Below the pieces are notes generated by a model, which ran no database searches, was not told the DNA's origin, and saw nothing but the letters and a program-made list of their open reading frames with translations. DNA of 36,578 nucleotides from a virus: positions 1 to 36,578 of the IMG/VR virus record IMGVR_UViG_3300008450_000166; one strand, 5' to 3'. A program made the translations under genes and the position numbers. Each line of letters starts with the position of its first letter. Positions within the stretch are counted from its first letter, which is position 1. Positions 1,905 through 7,274 of this stretch are shown in pieces.

Positions 1905-2108
1905 ATGGCAAACAAGAAACCGAAATACAGATTCTGGAAATCCGAAACAGATGGCTTGTGGTACTTCCACCTTCGCGGTGCGAATGGTAAGGTGCAACAA
2001 CCATCAGAGGGATATGCCAGCAAACAAAAGTGCGTTGAAGGAATTGAACGCGCTCGCAGAAACGCAACCATCGCAATCATTGAAGAGATAAAAGACCCAA
2101 ACCCATGA
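1905..2108 (+). CDS. DUF1508 (YegP-like) domain protein
   Basis: A 67-residue single-domain protein. The segment WYFHLRGANGKV followed by SEGYASKQKCVEGIERARRNA matches the DUF1508/YegP repeat (FxLKAxNGxxIxxSExYxSKxxxxxGIxxVxxNA in bacterial members). The family's biochemical role is not established. It starts four bases after the tailspike stop and overlaps the ParB-like gene by four bases (ATGA), so it probably belongs to the same transcript as the DNA-modification block. Whether it takes part in modification is unknown. Confidence 0.75.
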   Translation: MANKKPKYRFWKSETDGLWYFHLRGANGKVQQPSEGYASKQKCVEGIERARRNATIAIIEEIKDPNP

Positions 2109-2662
2109 GCGTTGAAATCACAAAAACAGAATTCGTTGACATCAATTCAATAAGGTCAAACGAAAAGAATCCGCGTTACATTAAGGATAAGGAGTTTCAA
2201 GAACTGGTCAAAAGCGTAACCGACTTTCCAGAGATGCTTGAAGCAAGACCGTGTGTTGTTGACGAGGATGGAATCATACTCGGTGGCAATATGCGTCACC
2301 GCGCTGCTGTTGCTGCTGGATTGAAGCAGATACCAATTGTTCGCATGATTGGATTAAGTGAAGAAAAGAAGCGAGAGTTTATAATCAAAGACAATGTAAG
2401 CAAAGGAAGCTGGGATTGGGATATGCTTGCAAATGAATGGGATTTAAGTGAATTAAATGAATTCGGATTCGATGCTTTCAAATACAATCCAGTCAATCTT
2501 GAAGATTATTTCAAAGAAGCAACTGAAAATGAAACCGAAACCGATAAAGTGAAAATAACACTAATACTAACAAAAGATGAATCAAAAAAAATAATCGAAG
2601 CAACAAAAAAATATGACAAAACAATTGAAGGTGGAATATTAAAAATGATTGACAGTATTTAA
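2105..2662 (+). CDS. ParB/sulfiredoxin-fold protein, possible DpdB-type partner of DpdA
   Basis: 185 residues. Residues 10-100 carry ParB-like nuclease-domain motifs: a NPR box (22-24), then IILGGNMRHRAAVAAG around residues 57-72, the equivalent of the ParB GERR box. A second half (about 95-185) ends in a helical segment and is clearly AT-richer than the first. ParB-like proteins of this type usually sit beside phage DNA methylases; here the next gene, two bases downstream, encodes a DpdA-like transglycosylase. In bacterial dpd islands DpdB, described as a ParB-superfamily ATPase, acts with DpdA to insert preQ0 into DNA. A similar partnership here is inference from position and fold. Confidence 0.75.
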   Translation: MSVEITKTEFVDINSIRSNEKNPRYIKDKEFQELVKSVTDFPEMLEARPCVVDEDGIILGGNMRHRAAVAAGLKQIPIVRMIGLSEEKKREFIIKDNVSKGSWDWDMLANEWDLSELNEFGFDAFKYNPVNLEDYFKEATENETETDKVKITLILTKDESKKIIEATKKYDKTIEGGILKMIDSI

Positions 2663-2664
2663 TC

Positions 2665-3402
2665 ATGATAATCTATTTAGCGGGATTAACAAACAAAGAG
2701 TTGTTGTTGATTAAAGATAAAGCGTACATTTTAGAGTCATTTGCTTATATCAAAAAACATAAGAAATGTATTTCAGAGTTATTGAAACATGAATTTATTT
2801 TAGATAGCGGAGCATTTACATTTATAGGAAACAATAAAAAAAAAATAGATTGGGATTCTTACACCGATTACTACATTGAATTTATTAATAAATACGATAT
2901 AAAGAATTATTTTGAATTGGATATTTATTCAATTGTAGGATTAGAAGAAACAGAGCGATTGAGAAAAAAAATTGAACGAGCAACCAATAAAAAATCAATT
3001 CCGGTCTGGCACATATATTTGGGAATTGATTACTTCAAAAAAATGTGCGAAAATTATTCATATATAGCAATCGGTGCAAGTGGAAGGCACGACAGTAAGT
3101 GGACGCGAAGCAACCCAGATAAATTAAAAGCCTTGATTGATTACGCTTCATCAAAAAAAGTAAGGGTGCATGGTTTAGGTTACACCAACATGACAATGTT
3201 AAATGAATTAAATTTCTATTCAGTTGATAGCACTTCATGGATGAATGGTTCTAAATATGGAGAAGTTCAATATTTTGATGGAAGGATAATAAGAAAAGAA
3301 TCTACAAAAAAACACAAGGCAAAAACCATTGATTCAAAAGAGATAATTAAAAACAATATCAATCAATGGTTGAGTTATCAAAAATACATGAAACATAAAT
3401 GA
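2665..3402 (+). CDS. dpdA: DpdA-like DNA-guanine transglycosylase
   Basis: 245 residues, the size of compact phage DpdA proteins. The TGT-barrel landmarks are visible: LDSGAFT (D47, candidate general acid/base), YFELDIY (D86, candidate nucleophile), IAIGASG (135-140), VHGLGYTN (168-175) and YSVDSTSW (185-192). The family exchanges guanine in DNA for a 7-deazaguanine base, in contrast to tRNA-acting Tgt. It starts two bases after the ParB-like gene and overlaps the next gene by ATGA, in an AT-rich patch. Downstream genes supply the modified base. Substrate (preQ0, CDG or another derivative) cannot be read from the sequence. Confidence 0.85.
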   Translation: MIIYLAGLTNKELLLIKDKAYILESFAYIKKHKKCISELLKHEFILDSGAFTFIGNNKKKIDWDSYTDYYIEFINKYDIKNYFELDIYSIVGLEETERLRKKIERATNKKSIPVWHIYLGIDYFKKMCENYSYIAIGASGRHDSKWTRSNPDKLKALIDYASSKKVRVHGLGYTNMTMLNELNFYSVDSTSWMNGSKYGEVQYFDGRIIRKESTKKHKAKTIDSKEIIKNNINQWLSYQKYMKHK

Positions 3403-4151
3403 ATATAATCGGTCATTCAACAATTGGCTTAATAGGGTATTTAATCACTAATGAATATTTGTTTTTGATAGGAAGTATCATTCCAGATTCAGCATTAATA
3501 TTCAATGAATTAAAATTGAAACAATTCGACAAATGGGATGTGAAATATAAATGGATGTATGATTTAACGCATTCACTTTATGCACCATTAATCATAAGTT
3601 TCATTTCTATTCCTTTGTTTGTTGGTTGGTTAATTCATATTTTAATTGATGTGCCTTTTCATTCATCATCGTTCAGATGGAAGCCATTTTTATTTGAAAG
3701 GTACAAAGAAAAAAGAAAAGTGTTATTGCTTAGTGGTGGTGCAGATAGTATTGCGTGTGCCGAAATAGAAAGGAATTACGATTGTATATTCTTTGATTAC
3801 GGTCAGAAATATTTAAGTTCAGAGCTTGAATGTGCAGTCGAATATTGCAATAAGAAAAATCTAAAGTTGCAGATAATCAAGACGGAATGGGGACACGATT
3901 GCAAAAACAGAAATTATTTAATGATAACTAAGATACTGCAACTTGGATATGATGAAGTTATAATTGGCACAAGGAATTTATTTCCTTTTACAGATAAATA
4001 CAAAGACAGTAATTGGTTTAATCTAAAGATGCTTCAATATCTTTATGGCATTTATATTAATATGCCTTTGATTGGAAAATTAAAGTATCAAATAATTAAA
4101 CTCACAAACAATTATAAATACTATTCAACAGAAAAACAATGTACACAATAG
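3399..4151 (+). CDS. membrane metal-hydrolase-like domain fused to a shortened QueC-like domain
   Basis: 250 residues in one unbroken frame. Residues 1-90 resemble the DUF457/YdjM-type membrane-bound metal-dependent hydrolase family: H6, PD (29-30), TH (57-58) and HILID (80-84), with hydrophobic segments near 8-28 and 61-84. Residues 107-250 are QueC-like: PP-loop SGGADS (112-117), FDYGQ (132-136), KNRN (169-172, matching the GRN box) and DKYKDSNW (199-206). QueC converts 7-carboxy-7-deazaguanine to preQ0 with ATP and ammonia. The usual C-terminal four-Cys zinc site is absent; only C248 remains. The gene overlaps queD by 13 bases. I know of no described fusion of this kind. Confidence 0.75.
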   Translation: MNIIGHSTIGLIGYLITNEYLFLIGSIIPDSALIFNELKLKQFDKWDVKYKWMYDLTHSLYAPLIISFISIPLFVGWLIHILIDVPFHSSSFRWKPFLFERYKEKRKVLLLSGGADSIACAEIERNYDCIFFDYGQKYLSSELECAVEYCNKKNLKLQIIKTEWGHDCKNRNYLMITKILQLGYDEVIIGTRNLFPFTDKYKDSNWFNLKMLQYLYGIYINMPLIGKLKYQIIKLTNNYKYYSTEKQCTQ

Positions 4152-4501
4152 CAAAAGAATTTCATTTCAGCGCATCGCATCAGTTAAGCGGATTGCCCGA
4201 CGACCATCCATGCTCGCGTCTTCATGGTCATAATTATGTATTCAGAGTTCACTTAAAATCCGATACTCTTAATGAAGTTGGATTTGTTGTTGATTACAGA
4301 AACCTTGACGACATCAAAAGGTTTATTGATGATGCGCTTGACCATAAACATCTGAATGATTTTCTCCCATTCAATCCAACAGCAGAGAATATGGCAAAGC
4401 ACTTTGCTATTGAGTTCAATAAAGTTCACCCAGAAGTATATGCAGTCGAAGTAGAAGAAACACCAAAAACAATTGCTCGTTATGAAATTAAAGGTATCTG
4501 A
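4139..4501 (+). CDS. queD: 6-carboxy-tetrahydropterin synthase QueD
   Basis: 120 residues, normal length for the family. Zinc ligands H14, H29 and H31 are present, with the catalytic Cys in PCSRLHGH (C25); D68-H69 and the substrate-binding E107 in VEETP complete the active site. The enzyme turns 7,8-dihydroneopterin triphosphate into 6-carboxy-5,6,7,8-tetrahydropterin, the second step to 7-deazaguanines. The gene overlaps its neighbours on both sides, consistent with coordinated expression. Its G+C content is clearly higher than that of the fusion gene just upstream. Confidence 0.93.
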   Translation: MYTIAKEFHFSASHQLSGLPDDHPCSRLHGHNYVFRVHLKSDTLNEVGFVVDYRNLDDIKRFIDDALDHKHLNDFLPFNPTAENMAKHFAIEFNKVHPEVYAVEVEETPKTIARYEIKGI

Positions 4502-5084
4502 AATATTCTACACCTTGCAAGGCGAAGGCGCAAGGGCAGGAACCGCAACAATATTCATTCGCTTATCTGGATGCAAGACAAAGCACGCTTGCGCTGCATC
4601 TGGTATAGTGTGCGACACAGAGTTCGAGAGCGGAAAAGAAATGACTCTCACGGAAATTCGTGACTGGATTTATGATAACGCTGGTGATTGTAAAGAAATC
4701 ACTTGGACTGGAGGCGAGCCACTTGACCAACTTACGGAAGAAATTATTGCAGACTTTAAGAGTTACGGATTTTTTCAAGCCGTAGAAACATCTGGACTTC
4801 AGCCGATGGTTAAAGGACTTGATTTTATTTGCCTTTCACCAAAAGTGGCAGAACATATTGTGGAAAAGAATTTCCCAGATGGAGTTACAGAACTTCGCTA
4901 TGTTCGCCACTTCGGTCAATCAATTCCAGAACCAAAAGTAAAAGCACAGCACTACTGGGTATCTCCGCATAGCGATGGATTCACTATAAACAAACGAAAC
5001 CTTGCTCACTGCATTCAATTATGTAAAGAGAATCCGAAATGGAAATTATCAGTTCAACAACACAAGCAATGGAACATCCTTTAA
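4482..5084 (+). CDS. queE: 7-carboxy-7-deazaguanine synthase QueE (radical SAM)
   Basis: 200 residues from ATG 4482 (a TTG at 4473 would add three). MKLKVSEIFYTLQGEG is the typical QueE start and TWTGGEP (75-80) the SAM-binding GGE motif. The cluster cysteines lie in CKTKHACAASGIVCDTEF (C31, C37, C44), spaced CX5CX6C instead of CX3CX2C. QueE makes 7-carboxy-7-deazaguanine from 6-carboxy-tetrahydropterin. It overlaps queD by 20 bases, and folE starts within its end. The unusual spacing belongs to recognised variation among QueE proteins, but I cannot confirm which cysteines hold the cluster. Confidence 0.9.
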   Translation: MKLKVSEIFYTLQGEGARAGTATIFIRLSGCKTKHACAASGIVCDTEFESGKEMTLTEIRDWIYDNAGDCKEITWTGGEPLDQLTEEIIADFKSYGFFQAVETSGLQPMVKGLDFICLSPKVAEHIVEKNFPDGVTELRYVRHFGQSIPEPKVKAQHYWVSPHSDGFTINKRNLAHCIQLCKENPKWKLSVQQHKQWNIL

Positions 5085-5617
5085 TGACACCAGAGGAAGC
5101 AATGAAAGTAGTCATTGCAAATTTCGACAATACAGAAAGAGAAGGGTTGAAAGAAACCCCAGTACGCTACATTAAATTCCTAAAGGAGTTTCTGAATCCC
5201 GAACCATTTAAGTTCACCACATTTGATGCAGAGGGAATTCAAACAATGATACTGCAGACAAACATACCTTTTTACTCATTGTGCGAACATCACCTTGCCC
5301 CTTTCTTTGGGGTGGCTGCCGTAGCGTATATTCCTGACGACAAGATAGTTGGGTTATCAAAACTGGCAAGATGCGTTGATTTGTATGCCCGAAGATTTCA
5401 AAATCAGGAACGCATCACAAAACAGATTGCTGACCGATTGATGTCAGAACTCAATCCGCAAGGAGTCGCAGTATCAATCACAGCACAACATCTTTGCATG
5501 GCGATGAGAGGAATAAAGAAACACAATACAAACACAACCACAACCGAACTGACTGGTCTATTTAAAGAAAACACATCTGTGAGAGCAGAATTCTTAAACG
5601 CAATCAATGGGAAGTAA
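5039..5617 (+). CDS. folE: GTP cyclohydrolase I
   Basis: 192 residues from ATG 5039, with ATG 5069 and ATG 5084 (TAATG overlap with the queE stop) as alternatives; the conserved domain begins after residue 16, so all are possible. Zinc ligands C82 and H85 (CEHH) and C153 (QHLCMAMRG) are present. The enzyme opens GTP to 7,8-dihydroneopterin triphosphate, the first step of the 7-deazaguanine route. A phage-borne folE would relieve competition with host folate synthesis. An AAAGAGAA tract upstream of 5039 is a weak argument for the long form. Confidence 0.93.
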   Translation: MEIISSTTQAMEHPLMTPEEAMKVVIANFDNTEREGLKETPVRYIKFLKEFLNPEPFKFTTFDAEGIQTMILQTNIPFYSLCEHHLAPFFGVAAVAYIPDDKIVGLSKLARCVDLYARRFQNQERITKQIADRLMSELNPQGVAVSITAQHLCMAMRGIKKHNTNTTTTELTGLFKENTSVRAEFLNAINGK

Positions 5618-6089
5618 GGTAAAAAAAACAGAGAAGAAAAAACCTGATGATGCAAACGCATCGGAGGAAATTGTTTTGAATTCTCAGGGTGATGCGTTTG
5701 CACAAATTACGCACCCACAAAAACGCGCGATGCTCCAGACTCTGGAAAAGGCTCTGGGAGTGGTTACAACGGCTTGTAATGTTGTCGGCATAAGCAGACG
5801 CAGTCATTACCATTGGATGGAAACAGACCCCGAATACAGAAGGCTGGTGAAGGCAATTGACGATGTGGTGATTGATTTTGCCGAATCGCACCTACACAAA
5901 CGGATAAAGGACGGGGACACTATTGCCACCATCTTCTTTCTGAAAACAAAGGGAAAGAAGCGCGGATATGTTGAGCGCACCGAGATAACTGGTAAGGACG
6001 GAGAACCCTTGCGTGCATTTTCATGGGATGAGTTATTCGCAGCAGCACGCAGAAACACGGACGGGAACGCAGAAACAAATAATGGATAA
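5607..6089 (+). CDS. terminase small subunit
   Basis: 160 residues, immediately upstream of the large subunit. After a charged N-terminus (KKTEKKK), residues 35-75 (MLQTLEKALGVVTTACNVVGISRRSHYHWMETDP) form a helix-turn-helix of the phBC6A51-type small terminase, and residues 75-125 resemble its oligomerisation region (FAESHLHKRIKDGDTIATIFFLKTK). It would recognise the packaging site on phage DNA. It overlaps folE by 11 bases, so packaging and DNA-modification genes appear co-transcribed. Two copies of the ATGCGTTTGCAT word (one truncated) lie in its first 100 bases and another at its end. Confidence 0.85.
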   Translation: MGSKVKKTEKKKPDDANASEEIVLNSQGDAFAQITHPQKRAMLQTLEKALGVVTTACNVVGISRRSHYHWMETDPEYRRLVKAIDDVVIDFAESHLHKRIKDGDTIATIFFLKTKGKKRGYVERTEITGKDGEPLRAFSWDELFAAARRNTDGNAETNNG

Positions 6090-6098
6090 TGCAAACGC

Positions 6099-7274
6099 AT
6101 GAACTTTTGCAAGACCTACTACGACCTGACCGAGCGATTCATCCCCTCGCGCAAACGCATTGCAATCAATCAGGGCGGTACTCGAAGCGGTAAGACATAT
6201 TCAATCATTCAGTTCTTAATTGAAACAGCAATCCGCGCCCAGATAAACGGCATGGAAGGGCGACTTATTACCATTGTCAGAAAGACGATGCCTGCGCTGA
6301 AGGCAACTGCGATGCGCGACTTCATGGAGATACTTGAAAAGATTGGGTACTATTCGGAAGAGAATCACAACAAGTCATTGAATGAATATCACCTTTGCGG
6401 AAGTGTTTTTGAATTCATCAGCCTTGACCAACCTACAAAGGTGCGAGGACGGAAACGGGATATTCTGTTTGTGAATGAAGCAAACGAACTGGACTTTGAG
6501 GACTGGCGACAATTGTTGATGCGTACAACCGACAAGGTGATTATTGATTACAACCCTTCGGACGAATATCATTGGCTCTATGACCATGTTCACACGCGAG
6601 AGGACGCAATGTTTTTCCAGACCAGTTACCTTGACAATCCATTCTTAGAGCCAGAGTTGATTGCCGAGATTGAAAGGCTGAAGGATGAGGACGAAAACTA
6701 CTGGAAGGTGTATGGACTGGGAGAACGCGGTGCAAGCGGAGAAACAATTTACACGAACTGGAAACTCATTGATGAGGAAATACAACCTACTGACATCATT
6801 GAAACAGCATACGGGCTTGACTTCGGGTTCAACAATGCGTCTGCATTGATAAAATGTATGCGTTTGAAGAACGGAGGTATTGTTCTGGATGAGTTGATAC
6901 ATCGCACGCATCTGACAAACAACGATTTGATTCAGTTGATGCGTTTGCACAACATCGGAAGGTCAAAGATTTACTGCGACCATGAGAATGACCGCATCAC
7001 GGAACTGACTCGCGCTGGTTTTCATGCCGTCAAAGCGAGTAAAGATGTCAAGGCTGGCATTGACAAACTGAAGTCAGTCACCATCTACATCACAAAGAAC
7101 AGCAGCAATCTGCTGAAGGAAATTAAAAACTACAAATGGAAGACCGACAAGAAAGGCAATGTCACAGATGAGCCAGTAAAGTTCAACGACCACTCAATGG
7201 ATGCTGCCAGATACGGGTCATTCGATTTGATTGCTGAAAGAAAACTGAAGGCGCGTGTCGCAAAAATGATTTGA
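6099..7274 (+). CDS. terL: terminase large subunit
   Basis: 391 residues. Walker A is QGGTRSGKT (25-33), Walker B ILFVNEA (122-128, catalytic E127) and the coupling motif DYNPSD (150-155). The RNase H-like nuclease shows GLDFGF (D241), YCDHEND (D294) and NDHSMDAARY (D364/D368). This is the PBSX/phage_terminase_3 layout. The protein powers DNA translocation into the prohead and cuts concatemers. Its ATG lies inside a perfect ATGCAAACGCAT word (6089-6100). Confidence 0.95.
   Translation: MNFCKTYYDLTERFIPSRKRIAINQGGTRSGKTYSIIQFLIETAIRAQINGMEGRLITIVRKTMPALKATAMRDFMEILEKIGYYSEENHNKSLNEYHLCGSVFEFISLDQPTKVRGRKRDILFVNEANELDFEDWRQLLMRTTDKVIIDYNPSDEYHWLYDHVHTREDAMFFQTSYLDNPFLEPELIAEIERLKDEDENYWKVYGLGERGASGETIYTNWKLIDEEIQPTDIIETAYGLDFGFNNASALIKCMRLKNGGIVLDELIHRTHLTNNDLIQLMRLHNIGRSKIYCDHENDRITELTRAGFHAVKASKDVKAGIDKLKSVTIYITKNSSNLLKEIKNYKWKTDKKGNVTDEPVKFNDHSMDAARYGSFDLIAERKLKARVAKMI

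Follow-up and report, generated by a model that had tools for sequence, protein, structure and literature searches.

Compact DpdAs of phages have been regarded as self-sufficient, and an older bioinformatic survey by Iyer et al. in 2013 reportedly linked ParB with TET/JBP phage cassettes. Bacterial DpdB, a PF14072 protein of ~370 aa that is found only in dpd islands, adjoins DpdA, overlaps the dpdA gene by 4 bases, and carries the nucleotide motif of the ParB/Srx superfamily. In 2019, a dpdB homologue was proposed for a gene of the kind described here in mycobacteriophage CRB2 (PMC6392294). The DNA of phage Rosebush contains dPreQ0 at ~28% of G, in a study whose main text leaves ParB unmentioned (PMC6884629). 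ParB domains have been partly described with phage modification enzymes, both as fusions and in remarks. Phage ParB-methyltransferase fusions (Kaljevic et al. 2025, PMC12704722; PHROG 498) have the same ParB_N core and GxxR motif as the protein studied here, although the enzyme in our locus is encoded by a separate gene and is a DpdA rather than a methylase; DpdA, deazaguanine and glycosyltransferases go unmentioned in the main text of the survey. Related ParB-fold proteins bind ATP, CTP or GTP, and changing the Arg of the GxxR motif to Ala abolishes this binding (PMC12704722). Likewise, ParBc proteins encoded near the carboxymethyltransferase CmoX, for which an SPPC motif was described, link PF02195 to a cytosine hypermodification enzyme; their function was left unassigned, and they were connected neither with DpdA nor with an exchange of tails (PMC12783734).

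The locus analyzed here belongs to an IMG/VR virus record, the whole 36.6-kb stretch of which is referred to as the window (Table 1). Based on Pfam, PHROG and TIGR matches, its genes form a tight operon in the order DUF1508-ParB-DpdA-PLPC-like/QueC-QueD-QueE-FolE-TerS-TerL. The initial annotation placed the ParB-like gene two bases upstream of DpdA, and this spacing is exact: the ParB stop codon (TAA, 2660-2662) is followed by "tc" (2663-2664) and the DpdA ATG at 2665. In the window QueC, a PLPC-like domain is fused at the N-terminus, and the cysteine cluster that QueC has at its C-terminus is missing. This form also occurs in its nearest relatives among the surveyed loci, which are numbered with an L (L010, 6897-7637; L012, 6737-7492; L013; L014), and is thus a lineage trait rather than an assembly error. 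The human gut phage MT835752 (L002) has the full operon with a normal QueC.

Table 1 Features of the ParB-DpdA operon in the window.
Feature	Coordinates	Strand	Evidence and remarks
DUF1508 small protein	1905..2108	+	PF07411, E 5.9e-12; 4-base overlap with ParB start
ParB-like protein, 185 aa	2105..2662	+	ATG start; PF02195; AF2 pLDDT 90; 7bnr Z 13.3
Conserved ParB core, residues 8-122	2126..2470	+	Core/tail analysis; common to ParBs with other enzymes
P-motif GGNMR (GxxR, residues 60-64), predicted NTP-phosphate binding	2282..2296	+	Alignment of 123 ParBs
ParB C-terminal tail, residues 123-185	2471..2659	+	Differs according to partner enzyme
Compact DpdA, 245 aa, DNA guanine transglycosylase-like	2665..3402	+	phrog_887; TGT fold Z 15.6
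Zn_dep_PLPC-like N-domain/QueC fusion	3399..4151	+	PF06508, 2.9e-8; PF00882, 5.6e-4
QueD	4139..4501	+	PF01242, 9e-32; TIGR03367 above cut-off
QueE radical SAM	4482..5084	+	TIGR04508, 6e-35; phrog_2076; start codon picked by eye within ORF 4473-5084
FolE GTP cyclohydrolase I	5039..5617	+	PF01227, 1e-60
TerS, terminase small subunit	5607..6089	+	phrog_4044, 4e-8
TerL, terminase large subunit	6099..7274	+	PF04466, 1.4e-21

The ParB-like protein matches ParB_N above the curated cut-off (PF02195, E 1.2e-6) and phrog_498/620 at 1e-25. The best structural match of its AlphaFold2 model is ParB-CTPgammaS (7bnr_A, rmsd of 2.2 over 92 residues), followed by Noc, PadC and sulfiredoxin. In the GxxR motif, G61 is found in 123/123 and R64 in 122/123 aligned ParBs. 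With a ParB_N domain, this P-motif and a ParB-like fold, the protein is assigned to the predicted ParB-CTPase fold of the ParB/Srx superfamily and, by analogy with its characterized relatives, would bind an NTP (CTP, ATP or GTP). Canonical ParB, Noc and KorB also have an N-terminal CTP-binding fold. Unlike these proteins, the window ParB shows no match to HTH_ParB (PF17762, Pfam, E<=0.1), and it has neither ParA in its operon nor a partition context; the genes scanned next to it (1905-7274) belong to families other than parA.

The adjoining DpdA matches phrog_887 at 4.3e-54. In its predicted structure (pLDDT 91), the nearest relatives are tRNA-guanine transglycosylases (TGTs), aligned over 235 residues; Foldseek ranked general TIM barrels above TGT, and a second aligner placed TGTs at the top. 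Asp47 and Asp188 are invariant in 39 aligned DpdAs and lie in motifs that resemble those of bacterial DpdA (GDCGAF, SIDST); zinc cysteines are not conserved. The protein thereby combines a TGT-like fold with a conserved catalytic Asp pair, and it is predicted to insert a deazaguanine.

To follow the ParB-DpdA pairing beyond the window, 80 IMG/VR loci with the same DpdA type were collected with an alignment query; a single-protein query of viral contigs with the window DpdA gave no matches, and a scan with the DpdA of phage Rinkes likewise gave none. Three of the loci are truncated by a contig end. In 76 of the 77 readable loci, a same-strand ParB is found directly upstream of DpdA, most commonly with a 4-base overlap. 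This count includes L054, in which a small ORF lies between the two genes, and the sole exception, L053, has a shortened DpdA. Clustering of the surveyed DpdAs gives 42 groups at 90% identity, 31 at 70% and 8 at 50%, and an independent Pfam check called ParB_N in 39 of 46 representative upstream genes. No ParB-DpdA fusion was seen among these loci, and the two genes are also separate in the window. ParB is retained beside DpdA in seven loci in which no que gene was found (L015, L028, L054-L056, L061 and L078), which indicates that it goes with DpdA rather than with preQ0 synthesis. The gene-neighbourhood survey suggested in the initial annotation thus shows that the pairing is not due to chance: the link is real and near-obligate for the DpdA type of the window. 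In the Fusobacterium phage phiFN37 (L003), three ParB-like genes are present, one before DpdA (which is followed by a queuosine-precursor transporter), one by a PAPS reductase and one alone.

This pairing is not general to DpdA, as only 8 of 78 members of an enterobacterial prophage DpdA group (AH07 type) have a ParB a short distance upstream. The genomes of L005-L007, L009 and L266-L268 gave no ParB match to profiles that likewise fail to detect gp1 of Rinkes, a divergent ParB-like protein. The DNA of phage 9g carries dG+, and its genome matches neither PF02195 nor the A4 profile in the same search, which misses the divergent Rinkes ParB; DpdA can work without a detectable ParB in such phages. 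In 9g, RHph_N17 and Me-ZS1 (L266, L267, L009), DpdA adjoins or lies close to a gene annotated as a DNA polymerase beta-clamp subunit, which is followed by a DNA polymerase, and no ParB is found in that place. The beta-clamp subunit is possibly another DNA-clamp partner for DpdA.

Cassettes of similar layout are found in cultured actinophages (Laurie, Nigel and Rinkes; Gordonia phages MakoManhole and CaiB; Rhodococcus phage Tonitrus; the layouts of CaiB and Tonitrus are taken from published papers). As in the window, ParB comes first and the genes overlap, with either DpdA and preQ0 genes or TET/JBP and aGPT-Pplase, and then the terminase. Compared with the window type, these phages have a divergent ParB core and other tails, with a DUF6610 C-terminus in Rinkes; this C-terminal half of the Rinkes ParB (L008, 1-1302) also occurs in the haloarchaeal tailed viruses HRTV-23 and HCTV-1. 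Nigel has the order ParB-DpdA-TerS-TerL, and MakoManhole has ParB-oxidoreductase-aGPT-Pplase2-AK-terminase. Outside the actinophages, the Bacteroides phage BS-TP3 has ParB-methyltransferase-TerS-TerL and the Leptospira phage LE3 has ParB-GNAT-TerL. In the Rosebushvirus Laurie, a gene in the ParB position precedes DpdA-QueC-D-E-FolE-terminase, and its product, gp1, is annotated as hypothetical and matches the Rinkes ParB core. Rosebush, which has been cited as a dPreQ0 phage with a minimal gene set, would be expected to share this gene order with Laurie, a phage of the same genus, and is therefore not clear evidence for a DpdA that acts alone. The initial annotation had noted that compact phage DpdAs are usually thought to act alone, such that a linked partner would be informative.

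A reverse survey was started from ParB. The patterns of this ParB subfamily match IMG/VR at more than 600 places, and the best 80 were read, with the partner taken as the next gene, a near gene or a fusion and labeled from sequence clusters anchored by the Pfam/PHROG matches of their members rather than from a per-locus Pfam table. Among these best 80 of more than 600, the partner is a TAGT glycosyltransferase in 26, an N6/N4 methylase in 19 (18 of them fused), Mom in 9, a C5 methylase in 6, a PAPS-reductase cassette in 5 and TET/JBP in 2. DpdA accounts for five, two of which are behind one small gene. Single cases are a weak glycosyltransferase-like protein and an ABC-type NTPase joined to a GNAT domain in one protein after ParB (L248, 4492-5571). 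Two further loci end at a contig edge, and four have no recognized enzyme (L212, L230, L258 and L265), of which two lie on ~32-kb contigs without N6/N4 or C5 methylases. Frequent pairing of this family with unrelated genes, which the initial annotation held would count against its proposal, is indeed observed, but these genes nearly all encode DNA-modification enzymes, which points to a general modification partner and not to an absence of function. The window ParB is not specific to deazaguanine chemistry. The C5-methylase-like partners (PF00145) follow ParB in L191, L193-L195, L200 and L253, and the SPPC motif known from CmoX is present in all four inspected. In L186, L250 and L237, the cassette lies just ahead of the terminase and comprises ParB, a protein resembling a cupin or a glycosyltransferase, a PAPS reductase and another ParB-like gene; these cassettes hold the nearest kin of the window ParB.

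In a ParB tree, the window protein groups with the ParBs of the PAPS-reductase cassettes (SH-aLRT 96), and the ParBs of fused methylases fall among those of the window type and share their core subfamily. The partner labels require 24 changes on this tree, compared with a minimum of 7 and a shuffled mean of 61, so that partners are clustered and yet have been swapped many times. The tails follow the partner while the cores stay alike. For 41 pairs of ParBs with different partners and cores at least 80% identical, tail similarity is 0.09, against a shuffled baseline of 0.075, whereas it is 0.45 for same-partner pairs, of which only six reach this core identity. The difference was matched by 0 of 300 permutations. 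In four of the different-partner pairs, DNA identity is 68-92% across most of the core and ~50% on both flanks. The ParB core is thus a shared module, and the tail and the enzyme change together, which suggests that the tail docks the enzyme. This covariation could equally reflect a shared recombination block, as the tail and the enzyme are adjacent. A ribbon-helix-helix tail, read by eye, was unsupported by a profile search of PDB sequences, and the tail was matched to no known fold. In L015, L027, L035, L056, L086, L212 and L230, the tail ends in a CPxCG zinc-ribbon-like motif rather than in KIxLEY, and the ParBs with this ending include some without an enzyme behind them.

The initial annotation further suggested that the ParB-like protein may be a phage DpdB. 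A true phage DpdB would be an ortholog of the bacterial ATPase, dedicated to preQ0 insertion by DpdA. The idea is not new, given the CRB2 precedent (PMC6392294), and the two proteins do share the superfamily motif and a place adjacent to dpdA, with the typical 4-base overlap of the surveyed loci equal to the bacterial dpdA-dpdB spacing (L184, 4739-5989/5986-7113). At the family level, however, the suggestion fails. The window ParB matches neither the PADLOC DpdB models (PDLC02811/02812) nor NF041060 at E<=10, nor the DndB/DGQHR family PF14072, and PF02195 is the only Pfam family above its cut-off. As positive controls, DpdBs from real DpdA-DpdB pairs on plasmids (L184, L185) score 1.6e-162 and 3.2e-123 against PADLOC DpdB, and PF14072 matches three real DpdBs. 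Compared with real DpdBs, the window ParB gives a BLASTP E of 0.61, and hhalign aligns only the superfamily GxxR motif, at a probability of 2.1%. The protein is also half the length of DpdB, and most of its relatives serve other enzymes. Across 395 genomes from the phylum to which G003 belongs, the DpdB-like proteins are all distant DGQHR members, and none passes the cut-off. In the Sinorhizobium plasmid L185 (3580-8798), DpdA lies between two DpdB genes, and queE-queD-queC and a VUT transporter come next. DpdB membership was rejected on these grounds, and the family models largely refute orthology, which we consider hardly credible. What stands of the initial interpretation is a ParB-DpdA link that is near-obligate and kept without preQ0 genes. 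The ParB is a superfamily cousin of DpdB, and may act as an accessory of DpdA in the way thought for DpdB without being a member of that family.

Three other explanations bear on the position of this gene. The ParB could be a factor on the packaging or terminase side, with the modification enzyme between as incidental cargo. TerL lies within 4 kb downstream of ParB in 29 of the 34 loci having 3.5 kb of flank, and the ParBs of the four loci without a recognized enzyme stand before terminase genes, as this explanation would predict. It is nonetheless unlikely, since almost every locus that reads far enough has a modification enzyme as the gene after ParB, 18 ParBs carry a fused methylase, the tail varies with the enzyme, and phiFN37 has no terminase annotated in the 10.8 kb around its ParB-DpdA pair. 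A position at or near the cassette front would also suit a regulator or a DNA nickase ("ParB-like nuclease"), such as an operon repressor or a cutter of unmodified DNA, and ParB/Srx proteins include nickases, while an operon-repressing role is described for DndB (PMC12839542, PMC12704722). Methylase fusions and tail-enzyme covariation are not expected of a repressor, and Pfam finds no helix-turn-helix match. To our knowledge, no nuclease site exists in this ParB family, and we regard this role as distinctly improbable. Finally, the core could be a recombination-friendly site near the terminase that serves cassette exchange, with linkage but no working connection between ParB and enzyme; its similarity between unrelated flanks is what a recombination anchor would leave. 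ParB is retained over 31 DpdA clusters at 70% identity, its functional motifs are nearly invariant, 18 ParBs are fused in frame to their enzyme, and actinophages repeat the layout around a divergent ParB, all of which makes this very unlikely.

The reading that we favor as the probable one is of an NTP-binding ParB adaptor whose core is combined with a tail and an enzyme that can be exchanged, DpdA being one such enzyme. The ParB-like protein would be an NTP-binding (CTP, ATP or GTP) accessory of a phage DNA-modification cassette that adjoins the terminase. Its N-terminal core is probably the part that engages DNA or acts as a switch, and the short tail at its C-terminus is the probable docking site for the enzyme of the neighboring gene, here DpdA, which would then act on the phage DNA as it is packaged or earlier. 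Counting against an adaptor are the loci without a recognized enzyme, phages such as 9g, and the C-terminal parts of Rinkes and Nigel, which differ although both phages have a ParB-DpdA pair. A wider proposal, which we put forward only tentatively and do not expect to hold in full, is that a single family of NTP-dependent ParB adaptors uses interchangeable docking tails to serve chemically unrelated hypermodification enzymes of phages, and coordinates the licensing of modification with packaging at the terminase.

New here are the near-obligate tie of ParB to one DpdA type, the partner range within one close ParB subfamily and the exchange of cores and tails, which touch on the way in which the hypermodification enzymes of phages locate and cover their DNA. 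Were a swappable ParB core the common targeting or licensing factor of these enzymes, a single testable mechanism would apply to phage DNAs of the deazaguanine, glycosylated, carboxymethylated, methylated and Mom types. Work on DpdA, TAGT, Mom or CmoX expressed alone may then miss a required partner, and tail exchange would allow ParB-enzyme pairings to be predicted. The same would bear on Rosebush-type phages, hitherto read as cases in which DpdA and preQ0 genes suffice. These results may suggest a general role for such ParB-like proteins as adaptors that help phages to disguise their DNA.
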